From the IMG/VR virus record IMGVR_UViG_3300042691_036566, positions 1 through 64,000 of that record: a stretch of 64,000 bases of DNA, one strand, 5' to 3'. Shown piece after piece: positions 39,405-64,000 of the stretch. The translations under genes and the position numbers were made by a program. Each line of letters opens with the position of its first letter. Within the stretch, counting starts at the first letter, position 1. The notes under the pieces are model-generated. The model was not told the DNA's origin and did no database searches. It saw nothing but the letters and a program-made list of their open reading frames with translations. This DNA comes from a virus.

Positions 39405-39463
39405 TTTACTATCACGCTGTAGTATTTTTGTGGGTTGACTTCACAAGCTGTCCGTGGTATACT
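39405..39463 (+). promoter_or_regulatory. Box-class promoter E
   Basis: Box TTTACTATCACGCTGTAG plus T-run (39405-39431), TTGACT (39435-39440), TTCACAAG, 17 bp, TATACT (39458-39463). Confidence 0.82.
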
Positions 39464-42656: not shown

Positions 42657-42657
42657 A

Positions 42658-43323
42658 ATGGGTTATCTTGCTGACCGCGCTCGCAATCGTAGTTTTAACT
42701 CTGCCCCTGCAACGGATCGCGTTACTGATCCTGTTGTTGGCGAACGTCTTACCAAGCTGCTTGCAAATGCGTCCCTGACGCAGAAGGATCGTGAATTTAT
42801 TACGAGCCTTGATAGCACTTGGAAGCGGTTTAACAACATGAGCGCCAATCAGTATAAGTATTTTGAGGTTGTCGAGAATCGGTATGATCCTGCTGTAGTT
42901 GCTCAAGCGCAGGCAGATCGTGCTGCATGGGCAAACACTTGGGATGCTTGGAAGGCGAAGCAGCTTGAGATTTGCGCTAAGTATTATTCCCAGACTCCTT
43001 ACTTCCAAGATTTGGCAGCTAAGGCTCTCAAGGATAAGTCGTTCATCCCGACTGAAAAGCAGTTCCGCGCTATGTGTGAGAACAAGTATGCAAAGCGTCT
43101 AATTCATAACATGACAAATAATGCTTTTGAGCCGGGTGATGTTGTTCAAATGCGTCGTCGTGGTGATGAACCCGAAGTTGGTACAGTCGTCAAGGTTCTT
43201 GACGAGGTTAATCGTCGCTCTGCAAACATTGGTGGTCGTCAGTACCGAGTCCTTTGGATGAATTCTGGCGAGGAAAACACCGTTGAAGAGAAGATGCTCA
43301 AGAAGTATCGGATGAAGGATTAA
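42658..43323 (+). CDS. Unknown protein with C-terminal SH3-like domain (221 aa)
   Basis: The N-terminal 150 residues are helical (TQKDREFITSLDSTWKRF). The C-terminus has FEPGDVVQMRRRGDEPEVG, then YRVLWMNSGEENTVEEKMLK, the same module as the free small proteins. GC-rich codons. ATG 42658 chosen over 42649 for ribosome-site spacing (cggag). Confidence 0.65.
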   Translation: MGYLADRARNRSFNSAPATDRVTDPVVGERLTKLLANASLTQKDREFITSLDSTWKRFNNMSANQYKYFEVVENRYDPAVVAQAQADRAAWANTWDAWKAKQLEICAKYYSQTPYFQDLAAKALKDKSFIPTEKQFRAMCENKYAKRLIHNMTNNAFEPGDVVQMRRRGDEPEVGTVVKVLDEVNRRSANIGGRQYRVLWMNSGEENTVEEKMLKKYRMKD

Positions 43324-51525: not shown

Positions 51526-51763
51526 ATTTGTACTTAATTCAGAACTAAGTGGATAGGACATATTTTACAGTAAATGGTGTTTTACGATGCTGATGAACAC
51601 CAGTCTAGGTTTTGGGACTTTTTATTTTTACATACATTTATCCCTTCCATGTTCCCATGGAGAGCCTAGAAAGTTATTGAAGTGCATCTAGTGACTTGCC
51701 CGCGAAGAGATGGCAAAACCCGATAAGCTACACATTATTATATTCTAGTGTGGTTTCCACTTA
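51526..51763 (+). ncRNA. Structured spacer RNA element E
   Basis: Core: CTAGTG (51688-51693), stem TTGCC/GGCAA (51696-51700 with 51712-51716) around CGCGAAGAGAT, then CCGATAAG. CCATG-TTCC-CATGG forms an upstream hairpin. It ends at the cluster terminator. Confidence 0.6.
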
Positions 51764-51794
51764 CCCCGCCTATTAAGTTAGGCGGGGTTTTTTT
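51764..51794 (+). terminator. Strong intrinsic terminator of the tRNA cluster
   Basis: 9-bp stem CCCCGCCTA/TAGGCGGGG (51764-51772 with 51779-51787), then T7. Confidence 0.92.
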
Positions 51795-51850
51795 GTTCTA
51801 TCCGTGCAGTTTTTTTCCTGGTTGACTTCACAGCCAGTTTTTGCTATACT
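51795..51850 (+). promoter_or_regulatory. Box-class promoter J
   Basis: Partial box GTTCTATCCGTGCAG plus T-run (51795-51817), TTGACT (51822-51827), TTCACAG, 17 bp, TATACT (51845-51850). Confidence 0.8.
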
Positions 51851-51894: not shown

Positions 51895-52236
51895 ATGATC
51901 CGCGAATGTGTTGAGTGTGGTGGTGAGTTTGATACGTTTAGTAAGGCAAAGCGTGCTGCTGGTGGTTTGTCTACTCACTGTGTTGATTGCAGCGACGAGA
52001 CTACTGTTCGTTATGCTGGTGTGCAGAATTCTGACGGTAAGCAGGCAGGCGTGTCCATTATGCGCTTCAATACGGAAGCTGATCGTGCTGCCTATATTGA
52101 TTTCTGGCAGGTAAACAGCGGTTTCCACAAGGGTAAGTCATGCCAGATTGGTCATGGACTTAAGTCGTCACCCGGTTTTGCTTATCAGACTGTTGCCGTG
52201 TTTGAGGGTAACACCAATCACAAGGGTAAGGCGTAA
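51895..52236 (+). CDS. Zinc-ribbon protein (113 aa)
   Basis: ECVECGGEFDTFSKAKRAAG, then THCVDCSDETTVR: two C-x2-C knuckles. The C-terminal half (GLKSSPGFAYQTVAVFEG) is unrecognised. GC-rich codons. agaggttt precedes ATG 51895; the frame is open from 51841 but that lies in the -10 region. Confidence 0.7.
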   Translation: MIRECVECGGEFDTFSKAKRAAGGLSTHCVDCSDETTVRYAGVQNSDGKQAGVSIMRFNTEADRAAYIDFWQVNSGFHKGKSCQIGHGLKSSPGFAYQTVAVFEGNTNHKGKA

Positions 52237-52685: not shown

Positions 52686-52949
52686 ATGATCCTTAAGATA
52701 GGAACTCCAGTTGTTTGTTATATAGATACTGGACCCAATTACGAAAAAATTATGACCCCACAGTTGGGCGCAATTGTGGACATAAAAGAAGAGGACAACG
52801 AATACGTATACAGAATCATCTGGGAAGATGATGAAGATTCATGGTATGAAGAACCTTGGGTTGAACTGTATTGGAAACAAGCTGTTAACGGCAAGATGAT
52901 GCCAGAAGAAGCTGAAAGGTTGAGTGAGGAATATGGATACGGATTATAA
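52686..52949 (+). CDS. SH3-like array protein 1 (87 aa)
   Basis: First member of the tandem array. ILKIGTPVVCYIDTGPNYEK, then QLGAIVDIKEE and YRIIWEDDEDSWYEE: start strand with G-x-P-V, a G-x-I/V turn and a V/I-x-W strand followed by acidic residues. This layout marks the early sub-family (52.6-55.2 kb). A helical tail follows. No enzymatic residues are evident; the fold is predicted only. Confidence 0.75.
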   Translation: MILKIGTPVVCYIDTGPNYEKIMTPQLGAIVDIKEEDNEYVYRIIWEDDEDSWYEEPWVELYWKQAVNGKMMPEEAERLSEEYGYGL

Positions 52950-53202
52950 AGTTGGTACACCTGTTTTGTTTCTACCAAAACCAGATAGAGAAGATCATAA
53001 ATTTCTTCAACCCTCTATTGGAGTGATTGTTGCGATAGATAAAAATCCTAATACTTCATTCCCATACAACATCATCTTTGACGATAACGATGATGATTGG
53101 TACAGCGACGAAGCAAACTTTATTGCTGAGATTATTCAAAACTATCAGGATGCGTTAAATGGATTGCCAATTCAAATTCAAGAACGGTCAATTGATATAT
53201 GA
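52933..53202 (+). CDS. SH3-like array protein 2 (89 aa)
   Basis: TDYKVGTPVLFLPKPDRED, then PYNIIFDDNDDDWYSDE, closely similar in layout to array protein 1 (GTPV and the acidic D-D-W-Y), so probably its direct duplicate. gagtgagg upstream decides ATG 52933. 17-base overlap. Confidence 0.72.
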   Translation: MDTDYKVGTPVLFLPKPDREDHKFLQPSIGVIVAIDKNPNTSFPYNIIFDDNDDDWYSDEANFIAEIIQNYQDALNGLPIQIQERSIDI

Positions 53203-53386
53203 TGAATATTATGGTCTTGGAGTGATAATCAAGAAAAAAAATCATCGTGGAAGATATAATGATTATCTTATTCACTTCTGCGAGCCTTCTGAAGATTTAG
53301 GTGAATTTGGTGTTGATTGTGGTTGGTTTGCAGAAGAATGGGTAGAAGATAAGGTAAATGAGCCATGCCTAGTGGTTACAAAGTAA
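53159..53386 (+). CDS. SH3-like array protein 3 (75 aa)
   Basis: QFKFKNGQLIYDEYYGLGVI, then YNDYLIHFCEPSEDLGEF, ending in the Trp-rich CGWFAEEWVED. Overlaps its predecessor by 44 bases, the longest early overlap. Confidence 0.66.
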   Translation: MDCQFKFKNGQLIYDEYYGLGVIIKKKNHRGRYNDYLIHFCEPSEDLGEFGVDCGWFAEEWVEDKVNEPCLVVTK

Positions 53387-53640
53387 ATTTTGAAAAGCAT
53401 AAAGTTGGCGATCTGGTTATGTGTGTAGAGCCAGATTATTTTGATTCAATGGATGTACCAATTATTGGTTATATTTCGGAAATTACTCCAGGTGTTATTA
53501 AGGGATATAAAGAATATCATGTTCTTTGGAACGACGAAGATGAACTCATGAGCTACGATAGCGGTTCAATAGCTAGATATAAACATTTACTTGTGGAAAC
53601 ACTTGAGGGATACGAAAATGAAGAAGAAGCCAGAGACTAA
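53365..53640 (+). CDS. SH3-like array protein 4 (91 aa)
   Basis: EKHKVGDLVMCVEPDYFDSM, then IIGYISEITPG and EYHVLWNDEDELMSYDSG, a near-consensus copy of the early sub-family (G-D-L-V; V-L-W-N-D-E-D-E). Confidence 0.72.
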   Translation: MPSGYKVNFEKHKVGDLVMCVEPDYFDSMDVPIIGYISEITPGVIKGYKEYHVLWNDEDELMSYDSGSIARYKHLLVETLEGYENEEEARD

Positions 53641-53896
53641 AGTAGAAATTAAGAATGGTGATATGATCTACGCAAAACCGTCACAAGAACATGAATCACC
53701 AATTGTAGGAACTGTTGTTGGTTATGATGAATCTACAAAATTATATGCAATTGAGTGGTCAGACGAATCAATGCCAGGATATGAAAAAGAGGCATTTGTT
53801 CGTTCTGGTAAGTTCATGATGAAGTGTATTAACGAAGCTATGGGGCTTCATTTTAAGCCGGAGGATCTCGATGGAAACGATATTCAGCCTGAGTGA
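53618..53896 (+). CDS. SH3-like array protein 5 (92 aa)
   Basis: KVEIKNGDMIYAKPSQEHES, then IVGTVVGYDES and YAIEWSDESMPGYEKEA. gaggg upstream favours ATG 53618 over the in-frame 53591. Confidence 0.7.
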   Translation: MKKKPETKVEIKNGDMIYAKPSQEHESPIVGTVVGYDESTKLYAIEWSDESMPGYEKEAFVRSGKFMMKCINEAMGLHFKPEDLDGNDIQPE

Positions 53897-54291
53897 TGCA
53901 TCTAAGAAGATTCGGAGGTTACTCCAAGTTGGCACAAAAACTCGCTGTTAGTAGCGAATACGGTAATTTTCGGCATGGTGCAGTTCTTGAAAAGGGTTCG
54001 GCAATCCTCGGCTTGGGTGTTAATAACGAGAAGTATTCTAGTGTTGGTGCTAAGTTTAGGCATAGTGATAAGGGACACAGCACTTATCACGCTGAGATTT
54101 CAGCCATACTTGGCCTTGATCGTAGCGTAACAAAGGGTGCAACGATGTATGTTGTTCGTGCGTCTAAGAAGGATGGTTCGATGCGTATGAGCAAACCCTG
54201 CAATATGTGCCATGCTTTGCTTGAGGAACGAGGAATTTCTAAGGTTGTTTATAGTGTTGATGAAACCATGATTGGGACTTACAAGTTTTAG
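53896..54291 (+). CDS. Zinc-dependent nucleoside/nucleotide deaminase-like protein
   Basis: 131 aa. YHAEISAILGLDRS supplies the His-Ala-Glu and SKPCNMCHALLEERG the P-C-x2-C of the cytidine/dCMP deaminase fold. Substrate unknown: dCMP deamination would feed ThyX. Start at ATG 53896, sharing TGATG with the previous stop; GTG 53893 is also in frame. GC-rich codons unlike the array genes around it. Confidence 0.8.
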   Translation: MHLRRFGGYSKLAQKLAVSSEYGNFRHGAVLEKGSAILGLGVNNEKYSSVGAKFRHSDKGHSTYHAEISAILGLDRSVTKGATMYVVRASKKDGSMRMSKPCNMCHALLEERGISKVVYSVDETMIGTYKF

Positions 54292-54299
54292 GATTTAAT

Positions 54300-54575
54300 A
54301 TGAGACCACAACCAAAATTCAAAGTTGGTGAAATTGTATTAGATGATTACTTTGATGATAAGCAAAATATAGTAGAAGGACAATATGCAATTGGTGAAAT
54401 TACTGAAGTTTTAATTCCTACCAACTTTGATACTAGTGGATATTATTATCGTCTTGTATGGTCAGATAATGAAGGTGATGATGAAGCCTTCGCTGAAAAA
54501 GATGTTCTTGAGTATCGAGAGAAGTATCTTGAATTTAGCGAGGTGTGTCAAAAAGAACTAGAAGCAAGCGGATAA
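54300..54575 (+). CDS. SH3-like array protein 6 (91 aa)
   Basis: QPKFKVGEIVLDDYFDDKQN, then YAIGEITEVL and YYRLVWSDNEGDDEAFAE. Helical tail with EKYLEFSEVCQKEL. Confidence 0.7.
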   Translation: MRPQPKFKVGEIVLDDYFDDKQNIVEGQYAIGEITEVLIPTNFDTSGYYYRLVWSDNEGDDEAFAEKDVLEYREKYLEFSEVCQKELEASG

Positions 54576-54588
54576 TGCGGCGGCTGGT

Positions 54589-54882
54589 ATGCGACATAAA
54601 CAGAAAACTCAGAGAAAAATAAAATACAAAGTAGGGGATCTGGTGCTGTACCGGGTTGCTGGTGTTACCAAACTATCTGAACAATTTTTTTCTGATGGTG
54701 GTGAATACATTATGGGATGTGTTCAAAATTTCCAATCAGATGGGATATATGCAGAAGTGTTATGGTGGGAGGGAGGGAAGGAATCTATTGTCCCACATGA
54801 TATTTATGATGTTAATAGATTCAGAGATAATTATTTACAGTTTCTAATAAATCCTGACGGTAAAAAAGTTCTTGACTTCTAA
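54589..54882 (+). CDS. SH3-like array protein 7 (97 aa)
   Basis: IKYKVGDLVLYRVAGVTKLS, then IMGCVQNFQSDG and YAEVLWWEGGKESIVPHD. Promoter K lies in its last codons. A CGGCGGCTGG (reverse complement of the recurrent 10-mer) is 2 bases before its start. Confidence 0.7.
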   Translation: MRHKQKTQRKIKYKVGDLVLYRVAGVTKLSEQFFSDGGEYIMGCVQNFQSDGIYAEVLWWEGGKESIVPHDIYDVNRFRDNYLQFLINPDGKKVLDF

Positions 54883-54900
54883 ACCGGCCCGTGATATACT
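54872..54900 (+). promoter_or_regulatory. Promoter K (GTTC class) inside the 54589 gene end
   Basis: TTGACT (54872-54877), 17 bp, TATACT (54895-54900) after CCGTGA; AAAAAAGTTC precedes -35. It is the last promoter seen and may serve the whole later array. Confidence 0.8.
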
Positions 54901-54930
54901 GGCGGTGTCTTTTCAGCGAGGAAATAACAT

Positions 54931-55197
54931 ATGTCGAGCATCTATAAGGTAGGAACCAGCGTCGTATGCCCCGAAGCCACTAAGTATGGTGATAAGGGAA
55001 ATGTTTCGGGTACTATTCAAAATTTTAGATTAGGCACTTCAATTCCTTATATTGAATGGAGTGACGGACTGACAGGTTATGTCAAACCGCAATTTTTGAT
55101 CACAGAAGAAAAGTATAACCAACTCACAAGTGCAGGTTTCAAAGATTCTGAAATCTCTGAATACGTGAGGTTGTTTAATGGCAATATTTACAATTAA
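54931..55197 (+). CDS. SH3-like array protein 8 (88 aa)
   Basis: SSIYKVGTSVVCPEATKYGD, then VSGTIQNFRLG and IPYIEWSDGLTGYVKPQF. First gene behind promoter K; gaggaaat upstream. Confidence 0.72.
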   Translation: MSSIYKVGTSVVCPEATKYGDKGNVSGTIQNFRLGTSIPYIEWSDGLTGYVKPQFLITEEKYNQLTSAGFKDSEISEYVRLFNGNIYN

Positions 55198-55214
55198 GAA
55201 GGGAGGCGATACAC

Positions 55215-55307
55215 ATGGCACATCCACACAAGAACCGTCCACGAAAAGGACGCAGGAAGTTAGGAAGCAAGAAACGTCGAGCACGTCGTCTAAACAGAAA
55301 GCGATAG
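55215..55307 (+). CDS. Highly basic microprotein (30 aa)
   Basis: MAHPHKNRPRKGRRKLGSKK then RRARRLNRKR: 17 Lys/Arg in 30 residues, with two His. GGGAGG (55201-55206) 8 bases upstream is the best ribosome site in the area. It could bind RNA or DNA, or be ribosome-associated. The +1 frame from 55178 is a shadow of it. Confidence 0.62.
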   Translation: MAHPHKNRPRKGRRKLGSKKRRARRLNRKR

Positions 55308-55312
55308 ATGCT

Positions 55313-55504
55313 ATGACAAATGAGTGGAAAGTCGGAGATTTGGCTAGAACAAATTACTATGTGTTTCAAGATTCTATAGTAGCAATCAATAGCATCTTCT
55401 ATCAACGTAACGGCTTTCCACTCATTTCATGTACGATCATGGATGATAAATATACTGGAGAGTTTGTTATCCCTCTTAAATATCTTCGGAGGGTAGATGA
55501 GTGA
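55313..55504 (+). CDS. SH3-like array protein 9 (63 aa)
   Basis: TNEWKVGDLARTNYYVFQDS, then ISCTIMDDKYTGEFVIPL. Short form without the V-x-W motif. Start at ATG 55313, after the basic microgene. Confidence 0.65.
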   Translation: MTNEWKVGDLARTNYYVFQDSIVAINSIFYQRNGFPLISCTIMDDKYTGEFVIPLKYLRRVDE

Positions 55505-55754
55505 CGGAAGCGGTTTTCCAGCAAGAAAGATAACAAAACTTTCTAAGTATGAATATGATGAAGCAATAATTGAAATTGGTAAGATATATAGCAATTCAGT
55601 TGCTGTGACAGATATTGAAAAAGTAGAATGGACAACAAGGATTAAGCCAGTTAAAAAATGTGTTCATACAGTCAAATACATTGACATAGCAACTGGAAAA
55701 GAGTGTGAACTATATGCTGAATCATTCTGGAAATACTTTGTTCGACAATCCTAA
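55497..55754 (+). CDS. SH3-like array protein 10 (85 aa)
   Basis: EAIIEIGKIYSNSVAVTDIE, then CVHTVKYIDIATGKECELY. First array member with the I-G-K-I-Y start that dominates after 57 kb. Confidence 0.66.
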   Translation: MSDGSGFPARKITKLSKYEYDEAIIEIGKIYSNSVAVTDIEKVEWTTRIKPVKKCVHTVKYIDIATGKECELYAESFWKYFVRQS

Positions 55755-55974
55755 ATTCAATGTTGGCGATATGGTTGAAGAGTTCTGTATCGAAGATCAA
55801 ACTTCTGTGATGATAACAGTACTTAAAGTTAAGCTAAACATAGAATCACAATATTTATATGATGTGTATTGCTTGAATACCGGAATTGAGTATAACGATA
55901 TGCTCCTAAAAGACACTCCAGAATCAGATTATCCTTTTACGTACAGAAAGGTTCCAAATGTATTTCAACCATGA
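55714..55974 (+). CDS. SH3-like array protein 11 (86 aa)
   Basis: NPKFNVGDMVEEFCIEDQTS, then YLYDVYCLNTGIEYNDML. Start is uncertain (ATG 55705 or 55714); it overlaps the preceding gene by about 41 bases. Confidence 0.64.
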   Translation: MLNHSGNTLFDNPKFNVGDMVEEFCIEDQTSVMITVLKVKLNIESQYLYDVYCLNTGIEYNDMLLKDTPESDYPFTYRKVPNVFQP

Positions 55975-56230
55975 ACAGCCAATATATGTAAAAGTAGGTT
56001 CTCCAATATTTACAATTTATTACAAAGGTAAAAATGAAAAAGAACTACACGCTATTGGTAAGGTGATGGAGAAAGAAAGTAAAGGATATGCAGTAAATGA
56101 AGTTTTTACTGAATCTACTGCATATGATCAAGAACATACTCATGTTAGATTAGATGGAAATTTTTGGATTGTAGCAAATGAAAATATTTCTCTAAGGGAA
56201 GAGGAAGAAGAGAAAACCGATGAAGTTTAA
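55958..56230 (+). CDS. SH3-like array protein 12 (90 aa)
   Basis: QPIYVKVGSPIFTIYYKGKN, then HAIGKVMEKESKGYAVNEVF, acidic C-terminus (REEEEEKTDEV). Confidence 0.64.
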   Translation: MYFNHEQPIYVKVGSPIFTIYYKGKNEKELHAIGKVMEKESKGYAVNEVFTESTAYDQEHTHVRLDGNFWIVANENISLREEEEEKTDEV

Positions 56231-56441
56231 AATTGGTGATGTAATAAAACAAACTCATATGATTGGAGATACAAATCATTTTGTTGTTACCGATTATAGA
56301 TCCGATATAAATAGATATAAAGTTTATTGGATTGAAAAAAATCTTGATATGTGTGATTGGTTCCCGCTAACAAACGAACCTGATGTAATGTTTGGATATA
56401 CTTTTCAAAAAATGGAGAAAGGATATGATGTCACTAACTAA
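56220..56441 (+). CDS. SH3-like array protein 13 (73 aa)
   Basis: MKFKIGDVIKQTHMIGDTNH, then YKVYWIEKNLDMCDWFPL. Transitional between the V-x-W and the later type. Confidence 0.66.
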   Translation: MKFKIGDVIKQTHMIGDTNHFVVTDYRSDINRYKVYWIEKNLDMCDWFPLTNEPDVMFGYTFQKMEKGYDVTN

Positions 56442-56637
56442 AGAAATGATTACAGCTATTGATAAAGAAGTAGAATTATTTTCTGATGAAGAATTATTAA
56501 TTTATCATAATACATATATTGGATTGCATCAAATGCGTCCAAACTCGTATGATAAATACAAAGTTACTAAGAGCTTTGAAGAAATTACCAAAAGAGGAAT
56601 AGAGGATAAGATTAATGAGTTTTCCATCTATAGGTGA
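56425..56637 (+). CDS. Small helical protein within the array (70 aa)
   Basis: MMSLTKEMITAIDKEVELFS, all helix, no SH3-like motif. ggagaaagg upstream. Not a paralogue of its neighbours. Confidence 0.58.
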   Translation: MMSLTKEMITAIDKEVELFSDEELLIYHNTYIGLHQMRPNSYDKYKVTKSFEEITKRGIEDKINEFSIYR

Positions 56638-56827
56638 ACTTTGGTTTAGATACGATCCAGACATTGGAGATGACAAATATGTTGTTATCCTCGATATAAA
56701 AGGATCTACCGTATTTGCAGAATATATTTCAAATCTTGCAGATGTTGGGACATTCTATCCAACATTTTGTAGAACTGTAAGTGATTTTAGAAATATATTT
56801 ACGAAAAAGGATGGATCATGGGTATAA
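56615..56827 (+). CDS. SH3-like array protein 14 (70 aa)
   Basis: SFPSIGELWFRYDPDIGDDK, then YVVILDIKGSTVFAEYISNL. The start motif is G-E-L-W, an unusual variant. Confidence 0.62.
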   Translation: MSFPSIGELWFRYDPDIGDDKYVVILDIKGSTVFAEYISNLADVGTFYPTFCRTVSDFRNIFTKKDGSWV

Positions 56828-56880
56828 TTCCAGTTGCTCCGGTCACACCAATTTCTCCAATTAAGCCGGTTAAAAGATAG
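56818..56880 (+). CDS. Possible Pro-rich microprotein (20 aa)
   Basis: MGIIPVAPVTPISPIKPVKR: alternating Pro with Val/Ile. It overlaps the previous stop by 10 bases. Weak case, listed because of the regular P-x-x pattern. Confidence 0.35.
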   Translation: MGIIPVAPVTPISPIKPVKR

Positions 56881-56883
56881 AAT

Positions 56884-57103
56884 ATGATGGAGTATTATAG
56901 TCTCAAAGACAAAAAAAAAAGAACCACTTATCGGTAGGATGTATCGAATAATTGTTGACGGGGATGAGGCAATTCCTGTGGTTGTGAGTGATATCTTTGA
57001 AGCATATAAAGGCATGATAATTGAATACTATGCTATAGATGATCCAGAACATATGATTACAGATTCTGTCTCAGTTTTTTGCGAGTGGTATGGAGAATGG
57101 TAA
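56884..57103 (+). pseudogene. SH3-like array protein 15, frame broken at an A10 run
   Basis: From ATG 56884 the frame reads MMEYYSLKDKKK and then leaves the family after the A-run at 56911-56920, stopping at 56937. In the +1 frame the rest follows: EPLIGRMYRIIVDGDEAIPV, then IEYYAIDDPEHM and the terminal Trp region, ending at 57103. One fewer A would restore a full member of about 72 residues. Either polymerase slippage, a sequencing error, or a true break; the part from ATG 56939 (54 aa) may be translated alone. Confidence 0.55.
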
Positions 57104-57318
57104 TGGCTAAAAGATCACTTAAGGTCGGACATTTTTATTATCAAAAGATGAGTATGCTGGATGTATATTGTGTTCTTAAAACATATATGGATGGCAACCT
57201 AAAGTGGGTTCAGCTACATAATCTTAAGTCAGATGAAATTAGGTATGATCTTTATGATAGTTTTCTAGGTAAAACAAGGGAAGTAAATGAGCGTTATTGG
57301 AAAAGTATTCAAGGATAA
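57103..57318 (+). CDS. SH3-like array protein 16 (71 aa)
   Basis: KRSLKVGHFYYQKMSMLDVY, then WVQLHNLKSDEIRYDLYDSF. TAATG coupling with the broken gene's stop fixes the start at 57103 and supports translation through that gene. Confidence 0.66.
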   Translation: MAKRSLKVGHFYYQKMSMLDVYCVLKTYMDGNLKWVQLHNLKSDEIRYDLYDSFLGKTREVNERYWKSIQG

Positions 57319-57478
57319 AAACGAAAATCATGTCGTAGTGATCTCGCAAGGTAAAAGATTACCGCAAGGATTCGCATATGAAGTTATGATGTATAAAATT
57401 AGATATATGACTTACGATAAAGAATCTTGGTTTTCTAAAATGTTATTTTTGAATTGCTTTACTGAAGTAAAGGATTGA
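57287..57478 (+). CDS. SH3-like array protein 17 (63 aa)
   Basis: MSVIGKVFKDKNENHVVVIS, then YMTYDKESWFSKMLFLNC. 32-base overlap upstream. Confidence 0.62.
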   Translation: MSVIGKVFKDKNENHVVVISQGKRLPQGFAYEVMMYKIRYMTYDKESWFSKMLFLNCFTEVKD

Positions 57479-57479
57479 A

Positions 57480-57683
57480 ATGATGAAAGTAAAAGCCAAT
57501 AAAGAGAAAGACCCAGAGAGATGGTATATTTATGTAAATAAGGAGACTAAAGGTGTACAATCATCCTTAGAACTACCTGAAGAAATGAATAAAGAAAATA
57601 AATATATTGTCCATGGACCATATAAAAATTCAAAGGTGATTGATGAATGGATCAGAGTCAAAAAAGAGAGCCAGCAGAAATAA
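57480..57683 (+). CDS. Small basic protein within the array (67 aa)
   Basis: MMKVKANKEKDPERWYIYVN, then YIVHGPYKNSKVIDEWIRVK. It lacks the G-K-x-Y start and looks unrelated to the array family. Confidence 0.58.
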   Translation: MMKVKANKEKDPERWYIYVNKETKGVQSSLELPEEMNKENKYIVHGPYKNSKVIDEWIRVKKESQQK

Positions 57684-57916
57684 AGCTGGGTAAAATATAT
57701 GCAACAAAATGGAAATCATATATTGATCCTGTCACTATGGAACCAGTTCCAGAATATGTTATTGTAACCGAAAAAAAGTCGGATATGGTAATATTTCACT
57801 ATGTTTCTGACTTAGAAAAACATCCGATGGGTAAAACAGTTAAATCTTTTTTACAAGATTTTAAAGAGACATGGAATGATAATACAGCCGGGAAAAATAT
57901 ACAGAGAAAAAGATAA
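57647..57916 (+). CDS. SH3-like array protein 18 (89 aa)
   Basis: PAEIKLGKIYATKWKSYIDP, then MVIFHYVSDLEKHPMGKTV. A longer loop (DPVTMEPVPEYVIV) follows the first strand. Confidence 0.64.
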   Translation: MDQSQKREPAEIKLGKIYATKWKSYIDPVTMEPVPEYVIVTEKKSDMVIFHYVSDLEKHPMGKTVKSFLQDFKETWNDNTAGKNIQRKR

Positions 57917-58079
57917 GTTATATGAAAAATCTTTTTTGGTAATAACGGATATTATAAATCCTAATACCGAAGACGCGATCTGTAGAGTATTTAGATTACA
58001 CGCTCCAAGTTTTCCATTTAAAGAATATTTAGACGTTTTGATAGATAAAATAGATGAACTAGAAAATTTTGATGATTAA
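57876..58079 (+). CDS. SH3-like array protein 19 (67 aa)
   Basis: MIIQPGKIYREKDKLYEKSF, then AICRVFRLHAPSFPFKEYL. 41-base overlap upstream. Confidence 0.63.
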   Translation: MIIQPGKIYREKDKLYEKSFLVITDIINPNTEDAICRVFRLHAPSFPFKEYLDVLIDKIDELENFDD

Positions 58080-58284
58080 AAGAAATCCAACAAATTACTA
58101 CAAAGTAGGTTGCCTATACAGAGGAAGTTATGGGTCTGAATCTGTTATATGCATTACCAAAGTAGATGATAAAGGATTTCAGTTTATTTATCTTGAAGAA
58201 CCAGACGAAGAGTTGTTTACTTTTTTCTTAAATGAGACAGGATTTTGGGTGAGAATAAATGAAGATGCAACCGGGAAGCCTTAA
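58069..58284 (+). CDS. SH3-like array protein 20 (71 aa)
   Basis: NYYKVGCLYRGSYGSESVIC, then FQFIYLEEPDEELFTFFL. The Y-L-x-E-P-D motif, diagnostic of the late sub-family, appears clearly here. Confidence 0.68.
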   Translation: MMIKRNPTNYYKVGCLYRGSYGSESVICITKVDDKGFQFIYLEEPDEELFTFFLNETGFWVRINEDATGKP

Positions 58285-58519
58285 GAGATTGATGGAATTG
58301 GTTAAAGAAAAAAATAATGGTGTTGAGCAACTAGAAAGGGAAATAATTCCCGGTAAGATGTATAAAGATAGAGAAACAGGAAGATATCTAGTTGTAGAAT
58401 CAATTTTAGATCAAATGCCAAATCAACTAAGACAGATTGTTTTTTGGTATATTGATGAACCAAATTTTAACCATGGTGCTTGGAATCAGGATGCCTACAG
58501 AAATTGGGAAGAAACCTAG
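58259..58519 (+). CDS. SH3-like array protein 21 (86 aa)
   Basis: A 27-residue helical extension precedes EREIIPGKMYKDRETGRYLV; IVFWYIDEPNFNHGAWN gives the late-type motif. The extension is absent from other members. Confidence 0.66.
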   Translation: MKMQPGSLKRLMELVKEKNNGVEQLEREIIPGKMYKDRETGRYLVVESILDQMPNQLRQIVFWYIDEPNFNHGAWNQDAYRNWEET

Positions 58520-58748
58520 TTGGGAAAAAGCTAGAGAAGTTAATATTGGTGATTTTGTAATGACACCATATCAAGACTGTCTTGGACAAATAATAGAAAA
58601 ACTGGAAAGAGGAGATGTTTATCGAATTGAGTGGTATACTCATGGAGGTAATAACTTTAGTAAGTTTAGCTGGAATACAGCAGTAAATTACAGACACTGT
58701 TATGAAGATTGGTTGAGAGTAAATGAATCAAGTATTCAAAATTGGTAA
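58491..58748 (+). CDS. SH3-like array protein 22 (85 aa)
   Basis: AREVNIGDFVMTPYQDCLGQ, then YRIEWYTHGGNNFSKFSWN: an early-type (G-D-F-V, I-x-W) member inside the late-type block. Confidence 0.66.
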   Translation: MPTEIGKKPSWEKAREVNIGDFVMTPYQDCLGQIIEKLERGDVYRIEWYTHGGNNFSKFSWNTAVNYRHCYEDWLRVNESSIQNW

Positions 58749-58908
58749 AGCATATCAAAACTACGTCTTTCCAGAAGAGTGTGTTGTAATCTTAAAAATC
58801 TTTAAGAGTGAAGGCGATGTATATGTAGAATATCAATGTATGCATGAACCTGATTTAATCGAACAAACGCCGATTGAAAATTTTGAGGATTGGTATGGCG
58901 AATGTTGA
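58723..58908 (+). CDS. SH3-like array protein 23 (61 aa)
   Basis: NQVFKIGKAYQNYVFPEECV, then VEYQCMHEPDLIEQTPIEN. Confidence 0.66.
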   Translation: MNQVFKIGKAYQNYVFPEECVVILKIFKSEGDVYVEYQCMHEPDLIEQTPIENFEDWYGEC

Positions 58909-59074
58909 TTTTTTCGAGGTTGGTAGATTGTATGTAAATAAACATACAGGGATGGTTGTTTGTATAGATTATGTAGATATGTGGGCAGGTGAGCGTTTTG
59001 CATCTGCCTACGATATACAAGATCCAGATGTAGAGCTTAATGTACACGTTATGAGTAATTGGGCCAAGCTATGA
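58895..59074 (+). CDS. SH3-like array protein 24 (59 aa)
   Basis: VDFFEVGRLYVNKHTGMVVC, then ASAYDIQDPDVELNVHVM. Among the shortest intact members. gagg precedes ATG 58895. Confidence 0.65.
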   Translation: MANVDFFEVGRLYVNKHTGMVVCIDYVDMWAGERFASAYDIQDPDVELNVHVMSNWAKL

Positions 59075-59298
59075 AAAAACACACTATCGAAGTCGGTAAA
59101 ATATACAGGTCCAAAACTCACAAAAACACTTATATACTTATTCAAGAGGTTATTAAACATATGATAGGATCCACATATCATCCTAATAACATCTATTATA
59201 CCGTAATATACAGCTATTTAGACAATCTTGAAACAAAGCACGTTGTATTCGACAAATTTATTCGTCGTGGTTGGGAAGTGTGTAATGAGACAATTTAA
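59071..59298 (+). CDS. SH3-like array protein 25 (75 aa)
   Basis: KHTIEVGKIYRSKTHKNTYI, then YTVIYSYLDNLETKHVVF. 4-base ATGA overlap fixes the start. Confidence 0.66.
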   Translation: MKKHTIEVGKIYRSKTHKNTYILIQEVIKHMIGSTYHPNNIYYTVIYSYLDNLETKHVVFDKFIRRGWEVCNETI

Positions 59299-59485
59299 AT
59301 TAGAAATTGGAAAAGTTTATAAAAGAACCTTTCGTCAAACGGGGGTAGATCATACATCTTATATTGTTATAGCTGGTCACTCAATTGATAACGAAATGTA
59401 TGAATACTATAATTACTATTTTCTAAATGATGCAGAATATATACACAGTTCTCTTCTAGATGAAAGCGATTGGGAATTAGCGTGA
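59285..59485 (+). CDS. SH3-like array protein 26 (66 aa)
   Basis: RQFKLEIGKVYKRTFRQTGV, then EYYNYYFLNDAEYIHSSLL and a C-terminal DWEL. Confidence 0.66.
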   Translation: MRQFKLEIGKVYKRTFRQTGVDHTSYIVIAGHSIDNEMYEYYNYYFLNDAEYIHSSLLDESDWELA

Positions 59486-59724
59486 CAACAATAAAAATAG
59501 GCAAATTATACTTGTGGCCCGATACAGCAGATTGGGATAAGAAGATTATCTGTGTTACAAAGTTCTCAACAGAAAAATTTGGTCCAAATGATATTGTGAA
59601 TGGATATATCTATCATTATCTAGATGAACCAAATAATGAGAGGTTCTTATGGAAAGATACCGCTGAACGTGAATGGGTATTGATAAAAGAAAACATGAGG
59701 ATGTTTAAATGGAATTCCAAGTAG
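59482..59724 (+). CDS. SH3-like array protein 27 (80 aa), GTG start
   Basis: TTIKIGKLYLWPDTADWDKK, then YIYHYLDEPNNERFLWKD: consensus Y-L-D-E-P. GTGA overlap with the previous stop. Confidence 0.68.
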   Translation: MTTIKIGKLYLWPDTADWDKKIICVTKFSTEKFGPNDIVNGYIYHYLDEPNNERFLWKDTAEREWVLIKENMRMFKWNSK

Positions 59725-59930
59725 GAAAACTTTACCGTAAAAGAACTAAATTCTCAAGATATATGGAAGAAGATCCAGACGAACAACCAATTATGGTTAT
59801 CACCGATGTAAAAAGAAGCCGTCTACAGGAAAATACTTTAATTGAATATCATATGCTTGATGAACCAGATAATATTCATGTAGCATATGAAAATGATCAG
59901 GTGGATAGATGGCAGATGATAAAAAAATAA
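59709..59930 (+). CDS. SH3-like array protein 28 (73 aa)
   Basis: MEFQVGKLYRKRTKFSRYME, then IEYHMLDEPDNIHVAYEN: one of the best matches to the late consensus. Confidence 0.7.
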   Translation: MEFQVGKLYRKRTKFSRYMEEDPDEQPIMVITDVKRSRLQENTLIEYHMLDEPDNIHVAYENDQVDRWQMIKK

Positions 59931-60106
59931 AGGTAGGAGGATTTTATTATCATATCTTCTTTGGAAGAGAAGAAACTGTTTGTGTGACAGATGAAAAAAA
60001 CGGCCATCTAGAATATGTTCTTTTAAAAGACCCAACAATTCATAGATGGGTTCCTTATTCGTTAATTAAAAACGTTTGGATTGAATATGACAATGATCAA
60101 ATTTAA
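59909..60106 (+). CDS. SH3-like array protein 29 (65 aa)
   Basis: DKKIKVGGFYYHIFFGREET, then LEYVLLKDPTIHRWVPYSL. Confidence 0.65.
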   Translation: MADDKKIKVGGFYYHIFFGREETVCVTDEKNGHLEYVLLKDPTIHRWVPYSLIKNVWIEYDNDQI

Positions 60107-60275
60107 AGCCGGTAAAGTTTATAAGTGTCTAAAAAACAATTCAATTGTGTTTATTTCTAGGGTTCATTTATATAAAGAAGGATGGACACAAGCTAGTTTT
60201 TTCCGAATGACTGATAACAATGATGAACTGGAAGGTGCGTTTATTAACAAAAATTGGGTTGAGCATGAAGGTTAA
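60087..60275 (+). CDS. SH3-like array protein 30 (62 aa)
   Basis: TMIKFKAGKVYKCLKNNSIV, then QASFFRMTDNNDELEGAFI. ATG 60087 or 60093 could be used. Confidence 0.63.
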   Translation: MTMIKFKAGKVYKCLKNNSIVFISRVHLYKEGWTQASFFRMTDNNDELEGAFINKNWVEHEG

Positions 60276-60444
60276 ACCAGGATCTGTCTGGTATATGAAT
60301 GGATTTGAGGAATACATAATTGTATTAGAATTTGTTGTAAAAACAAAAAGATATAAAGTTGCAAACGTAAGAAACCTCGATTTTCAACAAACAATGCCAG
60401 AAGAATTTTTTGATAATTGTAAAAAAGTAATGGGATTCATTTAA
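60265..60444 (+). CDS. SH3-like array protein 31 (59 aa)
   Basis: MKVKPGSVWYMNGFEEYIIV, then YKVANVRNLDFQQTMPEEF. Start motif is G-S-V-W; divergent member. Confidence 0.62.
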   Translation: MKVKPGSVWYMNGFEEYIIVLEFVVKTKRYKVANVRNLDFQQTMPEEFFDNCKKVMGFI

Positions 60445-60680
60445 TGGTTAAACTTGGCAGAGTCTATAAAAAAAGAAAAGATGTTCAAGATCTATTAGAT
60501 ATCCTGTATCCTCCATACATTATCCTTATGGAGGATGCAACAGCTGCCACCGCAATAAATGGACCAGATTATACTCAATATCGGTACATGGAATTAGATA
60601 AGCCAGATAAATTGTTTCCTATTTCCAGAAGAACATTACTTGATACATTTGAATTAATGGAGGTGGAAGATGGTAACTGA
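60444..60680 (+). CDS. SH3-like array protein 32 (78 aa)
   Basis: MVKLGRVYKKRKDVQDLLDI, then YRYMELDKPDKLFPISRRT. Single-base overlap upstream. Confidence 0.66.
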   Translation: MVKLGRVYKKRKDVQDLLDILYPPYIILMEDATAATAINGPDYTQYRYMELDKPDKLFPISRRTLLDTFELMEVEDGN

Positions 60681-60891
60681 TTCAGTAAAAGTTGGCAAGA
60701 TTTACAGAATGAAACCAAACGCACAAATTGATACAATGCCACAAGTTGTGATAGTAAAAAAAATCTATCCACGTGGGGAAGTTCAATTTGCAGTTCTAGA
60801 AGAACTTGAATCTAATTTTCATTGTAACATTTCAATCTTTAGAAGCAGATATTTTGAAATAACAGAAGATTGGCACATGCAAGGTCTATGA
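60670..60891 (+). CDS. SH3-like array protein 33 (73 aa)
   Basis: DSVKVGKIYRMKPNAQIDTM, then VQFAVLEELESNFHCNISI. ggaggtgg upstream. Confidence 0.66.
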   Translation: MVTDSVKVGKIYRMKPNAQIDTMPQVVIVKKIYPRGEVQFAVLEELESNFHCNISIFRSRYFEITEDWHMQGL

Positions 60892-61091
60892 TGGTTAAAT
60901 TAGGGCGGATATATAAAATATCTAATCAATATGTGTTGATATGTAATCATCATCCCGATGGAATTCCCAATAAAGAAGCAATTGGAGAGTTCTATTCCGG
61001 CTTCAATCTAAACTCCCCAGACCATATAATGTTTATAACACCAGAAATCATTCAAATGCAGAAATGGAAACTAGTGGAGGGACAAATATGA
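60888..61091 (+). CDS. SH3-like array protein 34 (67 aa)
   Basis: MMVKLGRIYKISNQYVLICN, then GFNLNSPDHIMFITPEI. ATGATG offers two starts. Confidence 0.65.
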   Translation: MMVKLGRIYKISNQYVLICNHHPDGIPNKEAIGEFYSGFNLNSPDHIMFITPEIIQMQKWKLVEGQI

Positions 61092-61309
61092 ATCTCTGTT
61101 TAGGAAGAATATACAAACTAAAGTTTAAAAAGCCAGAAAATACATTTGCCGGAGAAGAAGAAAGATATATTATGTTTGACGAGATAGGATCTATCGCAAA
61201 TGGTGGATGGATAAACTATCATTACATCAATAGGGAAAGTAATTGTATTGGAAACATGAGAACTTTTTTTGATACATTTATAGTTGAAGAGATAAGGGAA
61301 TTTATATGA
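61088..61309 (+). CDS. SH3-like array protein 35 (73 aa)
   Basis: MNLCLGRIYKLKFKKPENTF, then WINYHYINRESNCIGNMRT. ggaggg 7-12 bases upstream. Confidence 0.65.
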   Translation: MNLCLGRIYKLKFKKPENTFAGEEERYIMFDEIGSIANGGWINYHYINRESNCIGNMRTFFDTFIVEEIREFI

Positions 61310-61515
61310 TACAATTTGGAAAGGTATATGTAACAAAAAAAGTAGAAAAATGCACAAGAGTATATTTTATACCTTTAGAAATTGTCTCAACACAACCAAC
61401 AACGTACACAGCATATAAAGTATGGGGTCATATAGTCCATTTGGGTTACGAAGCATTTTTTAATCTATATGAGTTTACACAATATTACGAGATTTGTAAT
61501 GGTCAAGAAGATTGA
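61306..61515 (+). CDS. SH3-like array protein 36 (69 aa)
   Basis: MIQFGKVYVTKKVEKCTRVY, then TAYKVWGHIVHLGYEAFF. Late motif lost. Confidence 0.62.
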   Translation: MIQFGKVYVTKKVEKCTRVYFIPLEIVSTQPTTYTAYKVWGHIVHLGYEAFFNLYEFTQYYEICNGQED

Positions 61516-61699
61516 GCCGGGACGTTTGTATATTGAGCCAATTAAAAATGATGTTGTCGTTGTTGATAACATAGAAGAAATCTCCGATTCAGTTTGGTAT
61601 CATCATATTAACAGACCTGATTTTCCTGTAGTTGAAGGAGCATTAGGGTTAGCTAAGATGTATTGGAAAGATATTCAACATGAAAATACAAATAGGTAA
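61499..61699 (+). CDS. SH3-like array protein 37 (66 aa)
   Basis: VKKIEPGRLYIEPIKNDVVV, then WYHHINRPDFPVVEGALG. Ends with the W-x-D-I pattern. Confidence 0.66.
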   Translation: MVKKIEPGRLYIEPIKNDVVVVDNIEEISDSVWYHHINRPDFPVVEGALGLAKMYWKDIQHENTNR

Positions 61700-61886
61700 A
61701 CTGTATACTCGTTGTAAGCCATATTTACATGAAGATGATGTTGTTGTTGTAACTGGCAAAAGAAGAGTAAAGCATGAAGTCTTAATCGAATTTTTTTACC
61801 TAGATGAACCAGATGAACACTGCACTTGGAATACAGCAGCATTTAAAGATGGGATGAATGAATTAAATGCCGAAACAGGATTTTAA
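61680..61886 (+). CDS. SH3-like array protein 38 (68 aa)
   Basis: MKIQIGKLYTRCKPYLHEDD, then IEFFYLDEPDEHCTWNTAA: full late consensus, usable as a family reference. Confidence 0.7.
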   Translation: MKIQIGKLYTRCKPYLHEDDVVVVTGKRRVKHEVLIEFFYLDEPDEHCTWNTAAFKDGMNELNAETGF

Positions 61887-62085
61887 GGAAGGAAGGTTGT
61901 ACTGTAATCAAAACAAAAATGAAGTTATAGTAATAACTGGCGTAAATGAATCGTATATAACCTATATTGAATTAGATTGGACACATGAGGAATTTTGTTC
62001 TCCAAAGCATATCTTTAGTGATTGGGAATTAACAGATGAAGAACAAGGATCTGGTGAAACAGATAAAGTTCGGAAAGATATATAA
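61867..62085 (+). CDS. SH3-like array protein 39 (72 aa)
   Basis: KQDFKEGRLYCNQNKNEVIV, then ITYIELDWTHEEFCSPKHI. Confidence 0.64.
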   Translation: MPKQDFKEGRLYCNQNKNEVIVITGVNESYITYIELDWTHEEFCSPKHIFSDWELTDEEQGSGETDKVRKDI

Positions 62086-62251
62086 AAATAGAAGATGGCA
62101 AGGTGATGATTATGTCGTTCCAACTGAATACATGAGAGACTCTCATATGATTCATGTTGTCCGCTTAGACGATCCCAAGCATGATGGTTATATAACAGTA
62201 AAAGGTTTTATAGACGGATACGGGTTGGTGGAAAATGTTAATACCGGGTAG
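62054..62251 (+). CDS. SH3-like array protein 40 (65 aa), GTG start
   Basis: KQIKFGKIYKNRRWQGDDYV, then IHVVRLDDPKHDGYITVKG. GTG 62054 fits the family's short N-terminus and has aagga upstream; ATG 62036 is the alternative. Confidence 0.62.
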   Translation: MKQIKFGKIYKNRRWQGDDYVVPTEYMRDSHMIHVVRLDDPKHDGYITVKGFIDGYGLVENVNTG

Positions 62252-62456
62252 AATCTATCGAGCAAGCAATTGTGAATATGTACTAGTTGATGAGGTAATA
62301 GAGGATAGAAATGCTGCTGGTGGATATTATGTAGCATTTACAGTTGTTGGCGGAAAACCAGTTGAAGGAATAAATGGTAGAATGTTTGAACCATCACACG
62401 GATCAGATATAGATTATATAGGTCATTGGAAGTTAGTAACTAAATGGGTAAAATAA
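62235..62456 (+). CDS. SH3-like array protein 41 (73 aa)
   Basis: MLIPGRIYRASNCEYVLVDE, then YYVAFTVVGGKPVEGIN and a terminal GHWKLV. Confidence 0.66.
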   Translation: MLIPGRIYRASNCEYVLVDEVIEDRNAAGGYYVAFTVVGGKPVEGINGRMFEPSHGSDIDYIGHWKLVTKWVK

Positions 62457-62926
62457 TGGAAAACAAAACAACAAAATTTTGTAATGGATGCAAACAAGAA
62501 AAAGATCTTTCAGAGTTCACAGATAGAAAATATAAAAAAAGTGGAAACGTAGGGAAATACTTTGTTTGTAAATCATGTAAGCAGATAAATAACCGCAAGT
62601 GGGCCTTGTCAACAAAAGGTGGTTGGGTATCTACAATGCTAACAAAAGCAAAGACAAGATCAAAAGAGAAAAATATTGAATTCAATATCACAAAAGAAGA
62701 TATAAACATTCCAGAGTATTGCCCTGTATTAGGAATCAAGATCGAAAAGAACCCAGATGCAATAACAAAAAACTCACCCAATCTTCCAACCTTGGATCGC
62801 GTAGACAATAACAAAGGATACATTAAAGGAAATATTAAAGTTATAAGCTATAGGGCAAATGCATTAAAGAACAATGCAACCCTAGAGGAATTGGAGATGG
62901 TCATAAATTATATGAGAGAGACATGA
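62456..62926 (+). CDS. HNH-type endonuclease inserted in the array
   Basis: 156 aa. A zinc ribbon (KFCNGCKQEKDLSEF, then FVCKSCKQINNRKW) precedes CPVLGIKIE and PTLDRVDNNKGYIKGNIKVI, SYRANALKNNATLEELE, the layout of phage HNH/EndoVII-like homing nucleases. It shares TAATG with the preceding member and ATGA with a truncated one, so it has spliced into the array without disturbing coupling. Confidence 0.78.
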   Translation: MENKTTKFCNGCKQEKDLSEFTDRKYKKSGNVGKYFVCKSCKQINNRKWALSTKGGWVSTMLTKAKTRSKEKNIEFNITKEDINIPEYCPVLGIKIEKNPDAITKNSPNLPTLDRVDNNKGYIKGNIKVISYRANALKNNATLEELEMVINYMRET

Positions 62927-63024
62927 AAATAAAACTAGGAAAGATTTATAAGATAAGGGCAACAGAATCATGGATCTCTATGGAAGTATGGCATAAGGCA
63001 AAAGCTAAATGGGAAATAAAATAG
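62923..63024 (+). CDS. Truncated SH3-like array protein 42 (33 aa)
   Basis: MKIKLGKIYKIRATESWISM then EVWHKAKAKWEIK: the start motif and the terminal W-x-I are kept, the middle 35-40 residues are missing. It directly follows the HNH gene. Confidence 0.5.
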   Translation: MKIKLGKIYKIRATESWISMEVWHKAKAKWEIK

Positions 63025-63353
63025 AGATAGGAAAACTTTATATAAACATCCTTGATCAAAAAAGACCTCCAGACATATATTGTGTAACGGGGTTTAGACA
63101 AGAAGAACAAGGAAAGTTTGTAGAGTTTGTATGGATGAACAATAGAGCAGATGCAGAACAGAAACACGGTGATCCAAAATATGTGGAGGAAACTGCAATT
63201 GAATTGGGAGAGTGGATAAAATTAATTGAGGAAGAACTAGATGGACAAGAAAGAAAAAATCAAGATAGGCAGGATATACAAAAGAAACCCCAATCAACAA
63301 AGTATATATCCAGAATATGTCCTGATAACAGGCGACTACTCAGTAGGCGATAG
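63009..63353 (+). CDS. SH3-like array protein 43 with read-through tail (114 aa)
   Basis: NKIEIGKLYINILDQKRPPD, then FVEFVWMNNRADAEQ, and LGEWIKLIEEELDG, where a normal member would stop. The frame then runs 113 bases into the next gene in another frame (RKNQDRQDIQKKPQ...), so the tail is probably an overrun after loss of the stop. Confidence 0.6.
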   Translation: MGNKIEIGKLYINILDQKRPPDIYCVTGFRQEEQGKFVEFVWMNNRADAEQKHGDPKYVEETAIELGEWIKLIEEELDGQERKNQDRQDIQKKPQSTKYISRICPDNRRLLSRR

Positions 63354-63468
63354 AATGGGTAACAAAAGATATTCATATCACAGGATAGACAAGGACAAGG
63401 AATCAATTGCATATATATCCCATGTGGATCTGTATTTCCATTACCAGTTGGTTGAGGATGATGTTTAA
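63241..63468 (+). CDS. SH3-like array protein 44 (75 aa)
   Basis: KKEKIKIGRIYKRNPNQQSI, then YSYHRIDKDKESIAYISHV. Confidence 0.66.
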   Translation: MDKKEKIKIGRIYKRNPNQQSIYPEYVLITGDYSVGDRMGNKRYSYHRIDKDKESIAYISHVDLYFHYQLVEDDV

Positions 63469-63672
63469 ATGCTGGAGACAACAGTGGTAAAACTTGGTAG
63501 GATATACAAGAGCTTAAAAACAAATGAGTACATCGTCCCAACCGAGTTTATCAACATAATAGAGGCGCAGTTTGTTAAGTATAATGTGATTGAAACTGGT
63601 AACTATGCAATAATGAAGCTAGGCGAGTTTATAACAAGATGGAGACTCATGGAGGATAGTTTTTGGGAATGA
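63469..63672 (+). CDS. SH3-like array protein 45 (67 aa)
   Basis: TTVVKLGRIYKSLKTNEYIV, then FVKYNVIETGNYAIMKLGE and a terminal WRLMED. Confidence 0.65.
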   Translation: MLETTVVKLGRIYKSLKTNEYIVPTEFINIIEAQFVKYNVIETGNYAIMKLGEFITRWRLMEDSFWE

Positions 63673-63914
63673 CAAAAGAAAAAGTATATCTAGGGAAGGT
63701 ATATAAGTTAAAGTCATTAGAGAACTATTCAGCAATTGCAACATTTCCAAGATACATGATATTAACACATAAAGTATATCGACAAAAAGAATATTATATG
63801 ACAATGTATAGATACTACGATATAGGTTATGCATCTGTATCGGGGAGACCTATAAGCGAGTATGATATCACATCGTTCTATAAGGTTATAGAAGAAGGTG
63901 AGTGGCAAGAATGA
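63669..63914 (+). CDS. SH3-like array protein 46 (81 aa)
   Basis: EKVYLGKVYKLKSLENYSAI, then YYMTMYRYYDIGYASVSG. ATGA overlap decides ATG 63669. Confidence 0.65.
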   Translation: MTKEKVYLGKVYKLKSLENYSAIATFPRYMILTHKVYRQKEYYMTMYRYYDIGYASVSGRPISEYDITSFYKVIEEGEWQE

Positions 63915-64000
63915 TTAAGCTTGGGAGGATATACAAAAGAAAACCAAGTAATAAAGCATCACCATATCCAGCTTACCTGATACCAACAGGTGTTAACCAG
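63911..64000 (+). CDS. SH3-like array protein 47, cut by window end
   Basis: MIKLGRIYKRKPSNKASPYP then AYLIPTGVNQ. ATGA overlap with the previous gene; the array continues beyond the window. Confidence 0.65.
   Translation, partial: MIKLGRIYKRKPSNKASPYPAYLIPTGVNQ

Follow-up and report, generated by a model that had tools for sequence, protein, structure and literature searches.

The first 64,000 bases (hereafter, the window) of the virus record IMGVR_UViG_3300042691_036566, a 126,749-bp record of a freshwater bacterial virus, end in a dense array of small genes. Between positions 52686 and 64183 of the record we counted 50 open reading frames (ORFs) on the + strand, that is, 48 small ORFs of 54–114 amino acids (aa) plus one deaminase and one endonuclease gene. 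The last array gene (63911–64183) crosses the window end, the array running 183 bases past it. An initial annotation, made from the letters of the window, had proposed about 47 paralogous SH3-like mini-genes from 52.7 kb onwards, and both coordinates and count were borne out. The array is listed below, with members assigned by profile to an early and a late family unless stated otherwise.

52686–52949 (+), early-family g01
52933–53202 (+), early-family g02
53159–53386 (+), early-family g03 (weak)
53365–53640 (+), early-family g04
53618–53896 (+), early-family g05 (profile and predicted structure)
53896–54291 (+), cytidine/dCMP deaminase-like gene, a non-member interrupting the array (PF00383, 1.2e-13)
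54300–54575 (+), early-family g07
54589–54882 (+), early-family g08
54931–55197 (+), early-family g09
55178–55504 (+), array ORF g10, no profile link; K-V-G-D-L motif
55497–55754 (+), array ORF g11, no profile link
55714–55974 (+), early-family g12 (weak in leave-one-out)
55958–56230 (+), array ORF g13, no profile link at 1e-3
56220–56441 (+), early-family g14 (found on iteration)
56428–56637 (+), array ORF g15, no profile link
56615–56827 (+), late-family g16 (weak)
56939–57103 (+), late-family g17
57103–57318 (+), late-family g18
57287–57478 (+), late-family g19 (weak)
57480–57683 (+), array ORF g20, no profile link
57647–57916 (+), late-family g21
57876–58079 (+), late-family g22
58072–58284 (+), late-family g23
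58265–58519 (+), late-family g24
58491–58748 (+), early-family g25, amid late-family genes
58723–58908 (+), late-family g26
58895–59074 (+), late-family g27
59071–59298 (+), late-family g28
59285–59485 (+), late-family g29
59482–59724 (+), late-family g30
59709–59930 (+), late-family g31 (profile and predicted structure)
59909–60106 (+), late-family g32
60093–60275 (+), late-family g33
60265–60444 (+), late-family g34
60444–60680 (+), late-family g35
60670–60891 (+), late-family g36
60888–61091 (+), late-family g37
61088–61309 (+), late-family g38
61306–61515 (+), late-family g39
61499–61699 (+), late-family g40
61680–61886 (+), late-family g41
61867–62085 (+), late-family g42
62036–62251 (+), late-family g43
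62235–62456 (+), late-family g44
62456–62926 (+), HNH/endonuclease VII-like gene, a non-member interrupting the array (phrog_3322, 1.1e-33)
63009–63353 (+), late-family g46, with an out-of-frame C-terminal extension over g47
63241–63468 (+), late-family g47
63469–63672 (+), late-family g48
63669–63914 (+), late-family g49
63911–64000 (+), late-family g50, cut at the window end (ends at 64183 of the record)

Opening motifs are enriched in the array far above chance. The strict form (G[KR][ILV]Y or GD[LMV]V, beginning no later than residue 15) was found in 24 of the 48 small ORFs vs 2 of 395 other ORFs, and a loose form, GxxZ (Z being V, I, Y, L, F, M, or W), in 41 of 48 vs 65 of 395. That nearly every gene opens with the motif thus applies to the loose form, but not to the strict one. 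Two further signatures had been overstated: even with one optional residue permitted, Y-[LI]-[DE]-[DE]-P-[DEN] occurs in five array ORFs, as does the supposedly usual terminal W-x-[LI], and both correspond to variable positions in the profile.

With start codons picked by eye (guided by overlaps and hints of ribosome sites), 42 of the 49 junctions overlap—seven by exactly 4 nucleotides and four by 1 nucleotide—as had been noted for most genes, and these overlaps suggest translational coupling along the array. The 113-nucleotide overlap between the ORFs at 63009 and 63241 is likewise real at the ORF level. Here, the last ~35 residues of g46 use another frame through the next gene, and the C-terminal third of the ORF looks like an acquired extension, as might follow from the loss of a stop codon. 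In g17, the motif G-R-M-Y precedes the first canonical start codon, with the frame open from 56888 (56888–57103); this is possibly a decayed gene or one with an unusual start. As to the two interrupting genes, the deaminase is embedded among early-family members and also matches MafB19-deam (9e-7), and profile matches of the endonuclease gene include the Srd anti-sigma (phrog_1400) and Lar-like restriction alleviation families; the latter gene may represent a mobile endonuclease.

To link the members irrespective of short motifs, we ran iterated profile searches over all ORFs, on both strands, of the record and of related phages. These settled at 135 early and 38 late members, with no match to a reverse-strand ORF, and linked 43 of the 48 small array ORFs (11 early, 32 late); g10, g11, g13, g15, and g20 (starting at 55178, 55497, 55958, 56428, and 57480) found no link at E ≤ 1e-3. 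In a leave-one-out test, each member was scored with a profile built without it, alongside 300 shuffles of its own sequence; 30 of 32 members of the late family and 8 of 11 of the early one (38 of 43 in total) outscored every shuffle. Late members share only 14–30 % identity with g31. No protein was matched by both the early and the late profile, and aligning the two with hhalign gave a probability of 1.4 %, which argues for two families rather than one; the array interleaves them, as early-family g25 lies among late members. The initial annotation had named such a profile search as its check: many divergent members are indeed linked within each family, but a single paralogous family spanning all of them did not emerge, with two families found and five of 48 ORFs unlinked.

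Outside the array, the profiles linked ORFs at 42649, 71004, 73057, and 74779 of the record. The first of these, annotated before as starting at 42658, carries the module where it had been placed:

42649–43323 (+), 224-aa protein with an early-family module at its C-terminus (profile)

The other proposed occurrences—in the 43647 protein and standing alone at 42468, 45194, and 47303—found no link to the early or late profiles at E ≤ 1e-3.

We then turned to structure prediction. For the late family, a model of g31 from an alignment of 28 window members reached a mean predicted local distance difference test (pLDDT) of 92.2 and a predicted template modeling (pTM) score of 0.77, and its strands (8–11, 28–36, 43–49, 52–60, and 68–70, with a short helix at 61–64) follow the SH3 order. 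A five-stranded SH3-like barrel with a short 3-10-type turn before the last strand is thus a well-supported prediction for this family. Among viral proteins, Foldseek returned DUF1653 (PF07866) proteins of Erwinia phages as the best matches (E 2.1e-3 and 4.0e-3, probability 1.00; across pEa_SNUABM_5, PhiEaH1, and Ea35-70, E 2.1e-3 to 1.7e-2). Neighbors in the PDB included TbTudor (6if4; TM-scores 0.62/0.72), DUF1653 (3be3; TM about 0.5), and the RNA-polymerase-interacting domain (RID) of CdnL (2lqk). DUF1653 differs, however, in that none of the 28 late members matched its profile even at E 1, and we saw no comparable array of DUF1653 proteins here. The early family is likely SH3-like (Tudor/KOW/PWWP-like) as well, on weaker evidence: a less confident model of g05 with weak Tudor/KOW matches in Foldseek, a profile match to the NSD3 PWWP domain (E 4.9e-4), and sub-threshold Pfam matches, many of them to SH3/Tudor families, e.g. 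CarD_TRCF_RID (2.8e-4), Tudor_RapA, and Tudor_5; curated KOW, Tudor, PWWP, and CarD profiles gave sub-threshold matches only. The SH3/KOW/Tudor-like fold previously suggested for all members is therefore well supported for the late family and likely for the early one.

The late family keeps its scaffold residues, while surface and loop lengths vary. In an alignment fitted to the family's own profile, G6 is kept in 31 of 31 members, Y9 in 29 of 32, and an aromatic residue (W, F, or Y) at position 68 in all 30 aligned, and the second strand is hydrophobic. The loops span 3–16 (b1-b2), 0–13 (b2-b3), and 2–14 residues (b3-b4); these correspond to the RT, n-Src, and distal loops, common ligand-binding places in SH3-like domains. 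Net charge across the array ORFs ranges from –13 to +4 and the isoelectric point (pI) from 4.1 to 9.3 (below 7 in 34 of 50), a spread that argues against one shared nucleic-acid ligand.

Related arrays exist in other phages. A wider search with the early profile, covering loci around two conserved neighboring genes of related phages, matched 315 ORFs spread over 79 loci; all but one (314) lie on the coding strand. The majority stand scattered, alone or in pairs, but arrays of about 9–23 early-type members occur in five relatives (G004, with two arrays, G005, G007, G035, and G053), several of which adjoin the same marker gene as here:

51895–52236 (+), small conserved zinc-ribbon-like gene, the locus marker, which also adjoins arrays in G005, G007, and G035

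The late family is nearly private to this phage, with 32 members here and three each in G005 and G035. Retained orthologs had ratios of non-synonymous to synonymous substitution rates (dN/dS) of 0.23 (G035/G005) and 0.22 (G053/G007), as compared to neighboring-gene medians of 0.19 and 0.16. At the same time, 8 of 21 G035 members lacked a reciprocal partner in the compared stretch of G005, as did 10 of 30 members in the G053/G007 pair, where the figure may partly reflect the limits of that stretch. Given ratios close to those of neighboring genes, the retained members appear to be real, constrained genes under purifying selection in an array whose content turns over by gain and loss, and we rejected the idea of non-coding or decayed repeats. 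In G007 and G053, adjacent members resembled each other more closely than under random order (0 of 2000 shuffles as high), pointing to tandem duplication. The same test gave no such signal for the window's own late family; recent tandem duplication, and with it the earlier claim of growth by repeated duplication, is thus shown for the relatives only.

Further searches delimited this distribution. Neither tblastn of single members against GenBank phages, nor megablast of 25 kb, nor a contig scan with one late member gave any match, and a contig scan with a neighboring gene returned only contigs of metagenome-assembled genomes with a few early-type members and no reliable host. No array was seen in a relative with a 72 %-identical polymerase (G003), but its 111-kb fragment would not extend as far as the locus. 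Enterococcus phage 9184, to which the fold search had pointed, lacks arrays of either family, and we found no description of such arrays in the open-access literature.

The region also holds promoter-like sites. A motif matching strong extended –10 sigma70 promoters (TTGACN..TGnTATAnT) occurs in exact form six times in the window vs 0.03 expected, and a looser form with mismatches allowed 29 times on the + vs once on the – strand (3.0 expected). The looser sites are concentrated in the accessory region, with almost none beyond 82 kb (82–126 kb), where the tail genes lie. The recurrent form is TTGACT-N14/15-TG-N-TATAAT (e.g., at 39435, 46737, 46831, 51822, 54872, and 64385 of the record), and two copies flank the start of the array:

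51822–51850 (+), extended –10 sigma70-type promoter-like site (TTGACT-N17-TATACT with TG), upstream of the block
54872–54900 (+), extended –10 sigma70-type promoter-like site just before g09, overlapping the g08 end and the 48-nucleotide gap

After 54872, the next copy does not follow before 64385 of the record. The simplest reading is that host RNA polymerase would transcribe 54.9–64.2 kb, comprising 41 small ORFs and the endonuclease gene, early and as a single transcript. The T4-type late promoter TATAAATA was uninformative, with 15 copies on the + and 8 on the – strand.

Taken together, we give a probability of roughly 0.45 to the array being an early-transcribed operon for host takeover and counter-defense, encoding diversified SH3-like binders with different partners. 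We prefer this reading because it best accommodates a common scaffold on which loops and charge vary, along with early-type promoters, purifying selection on the members retained, and turnover of membership. In such an operon, two small SH3-like barrel scaffolds would have been repeatedly duplicated and diversified. Host RNA polymerase would transcribe the block soon after DNA entry, the overlapping genes would be translated in succession, and each product would bind a different host component via its variable loops and strands, with RNA polymerase, nucleoid or translation proteins, and defense or toxin proteins as candidate partners. The operon content would then turn over as hosts change. 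The library of binders against host or defense targets put forward initially is accordingly plausible as regards promoters, selection, and scaffold; the targets themselves are inferred. A stronger version—a genuine repertoire of ~43 single-domain binders that share two SH3-like scaffolds, are co-expressed early, have a separate host or defense target each, and are renewed by duplication and loss—may hold, but we consider it rather doubtful.

Several points weigh against the operon of binders. Surface variability can arise without new binding partners. All Foldseek matches of the late model lie at E > 1e-3, and the early-family model has a pLDDT of only 70.8 (core 85–92), with three confident strands and a C-terminal helix. 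No member scored above cut-off in any curated Pfam, PHROG, or NCBIfam family, which also agrees with the absence of an assigned function in the initial annotation. Selection was measured in relatives and mainly for the early family, with only three late-type ortholog pairs, and the early timing is deduced from promoter-like sequence only.

The locus belongs to a known kind, the block of small early phage genes; what is new are the dozens of diversified copies on two scaffolds. Dense blocks of this type are where anti-defense and host-takeover proteins occur, usually mutually unrelated. The closest functional analog of the block as a whole is the SPO1 host takeover module, whose products belong to unrelated families, unlike the array genes here, which are nearly all built on two scaffolds. 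The SPO1 module comprises 26 genes, with products that shut down several host processes (PMC6873191).

The main rival holds that the products are mainly directed at nucleic acids or at the nucleoid or RNA polymerase (T4 MotB-, CarD/RapA-like), the copies serving dose and redundancy rather than many targets. In its favor, the sub-threshold matches (CarD_TRCF_RID, Tudor_RapA, Tudor_5, NSD3 PWWP, the CdnL RID fold) cluster in SH3/Tudor families, and some of these families bind RNA polymerase or chromatin. Such Royal-family likeness (Tudor/chromo-like, PWWP, and KOW, including Spt5/NusG KOW) is seen in the early profile with NSD3 PWWP, in the late fold with TbTudor, and in Pfam, yet the array proteins stay below cut-off and are stand-alone phage proteins of 55–95 aa. 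There is also a precedent in T4 MotB, an early DNA-binding protein with an SH3-like KOW domain that is encoded in a dispensable region and whose family is duplicated in relatives (PMC7827196). MotB resembles the array proteins in its SH3-like type, and P39415 (motB-dexA interval) appeared in the late-family fold search (E 1.8e-2); however, MotB/MotB.1 have two domains (N-terminal KOW, C-terminal OB-fold) and occur in one or two copies, whereas the array proteins are single-domain, and neither the early nor the late profile retrieved MotB. Since most members are acidic or neutral, and mixed charge would be odd for a common DNA ligand, we regard this explanation as unlikely.

Another rival is a repertoire of anti-defense or antitoxin/immunity proteins, one per defense system or toxin, as in poly-immunity arrays. 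In its favor are the many divergent small proteins in tandem, the member turnover between close relatives, the early promoter-like sites, and the mixed charge. Immunity-gene arrays of polymorphic toxins are likewise tandem and encode small divergent proteins. In contrast to those arrays, however, this is a phage locus with no toxin seen and no known inhibitor or immunity family above cut-off—a weak match to Imm65 (E 0.02) being the only one—and we deem this account improbable.

Gain and loss between relatives could also reflect largely non-adaptive tandem duplication, that is, a genomic accordion of dispensable genes maintained by duplication bias, with decay under way, as the five unlinked ORFs, g17 without a normal start, and the read-through tail of g46 might suggest. 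A dN/dS near 0.22 over retained members, close to that of neighboring genes, and scaffold residues kept at such low identity disfavor this scenario, leaving it very improbable. Convergence of short motifs in unrelated small proteins, to which the lack of early/late cross-matches and the five unlinked ORFs might point, is hardly credible and is ruled out within each family by the leave-one-out test, the confident late barrel, and the near-exclusive coding-strand location of the wider matches.

The array would make it possible to test directly whether phages employ a single small barrel as a general binding scaffold. Resting almost entirely on two scaffolds, it amounts, together with the smaller arrays in relatives, to a natural experiment—the same fold in dozens of variants, with contrasts between orthologs and paralogs—and supplies dozens of compact candidates for new defense inhibitors or RNA polymerase modulators.

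As for the wider setting, baseplate wedge proteins, a DnaB-type helicase, ribonucleotide reductase, DNA polymerase, GroEL, and 24 tRNA genes mark the source as a large contractile-tailed phage. The GroEL gene lies at 23533–25110 (phrog_5725, 2.2e-141). The same phage is represented by a second, longer record (G001, IMGVR_UViG_3300008267_000004; 187,450 bp), which is identical across the 13,000 bp compared, array included. The block of small genes sits downstream of the tRNA cluster and the following hairpin:

51763–51788 (+), strong terminator-like hairpin closing the tRNA cluster, upstream of the block (10-bp stem, 7 G-C pairs, T tail)

Beyond the array, two more small paralogs ('FNA.E.RGCP.GAIEYVGGFS') are encoded at 66081–66467 and 68460–68837 of the record, with a similar protein in G035 (15577–15930 of its locus). 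Neighboring ~300-aa paralogs at 71209–72147 and 72154–73005 share the motif 'A[VI]TGRS[FY]GK[VI]FK' and look kinase-like by eye. Finally, a run of nucleotide-sugar/glycan-type genes at 89.4–104 kb of the record forms a large sugar module, with epimerase-, glycosyltransferase-, and cytidylyltransferase-like genes recognized by eye.

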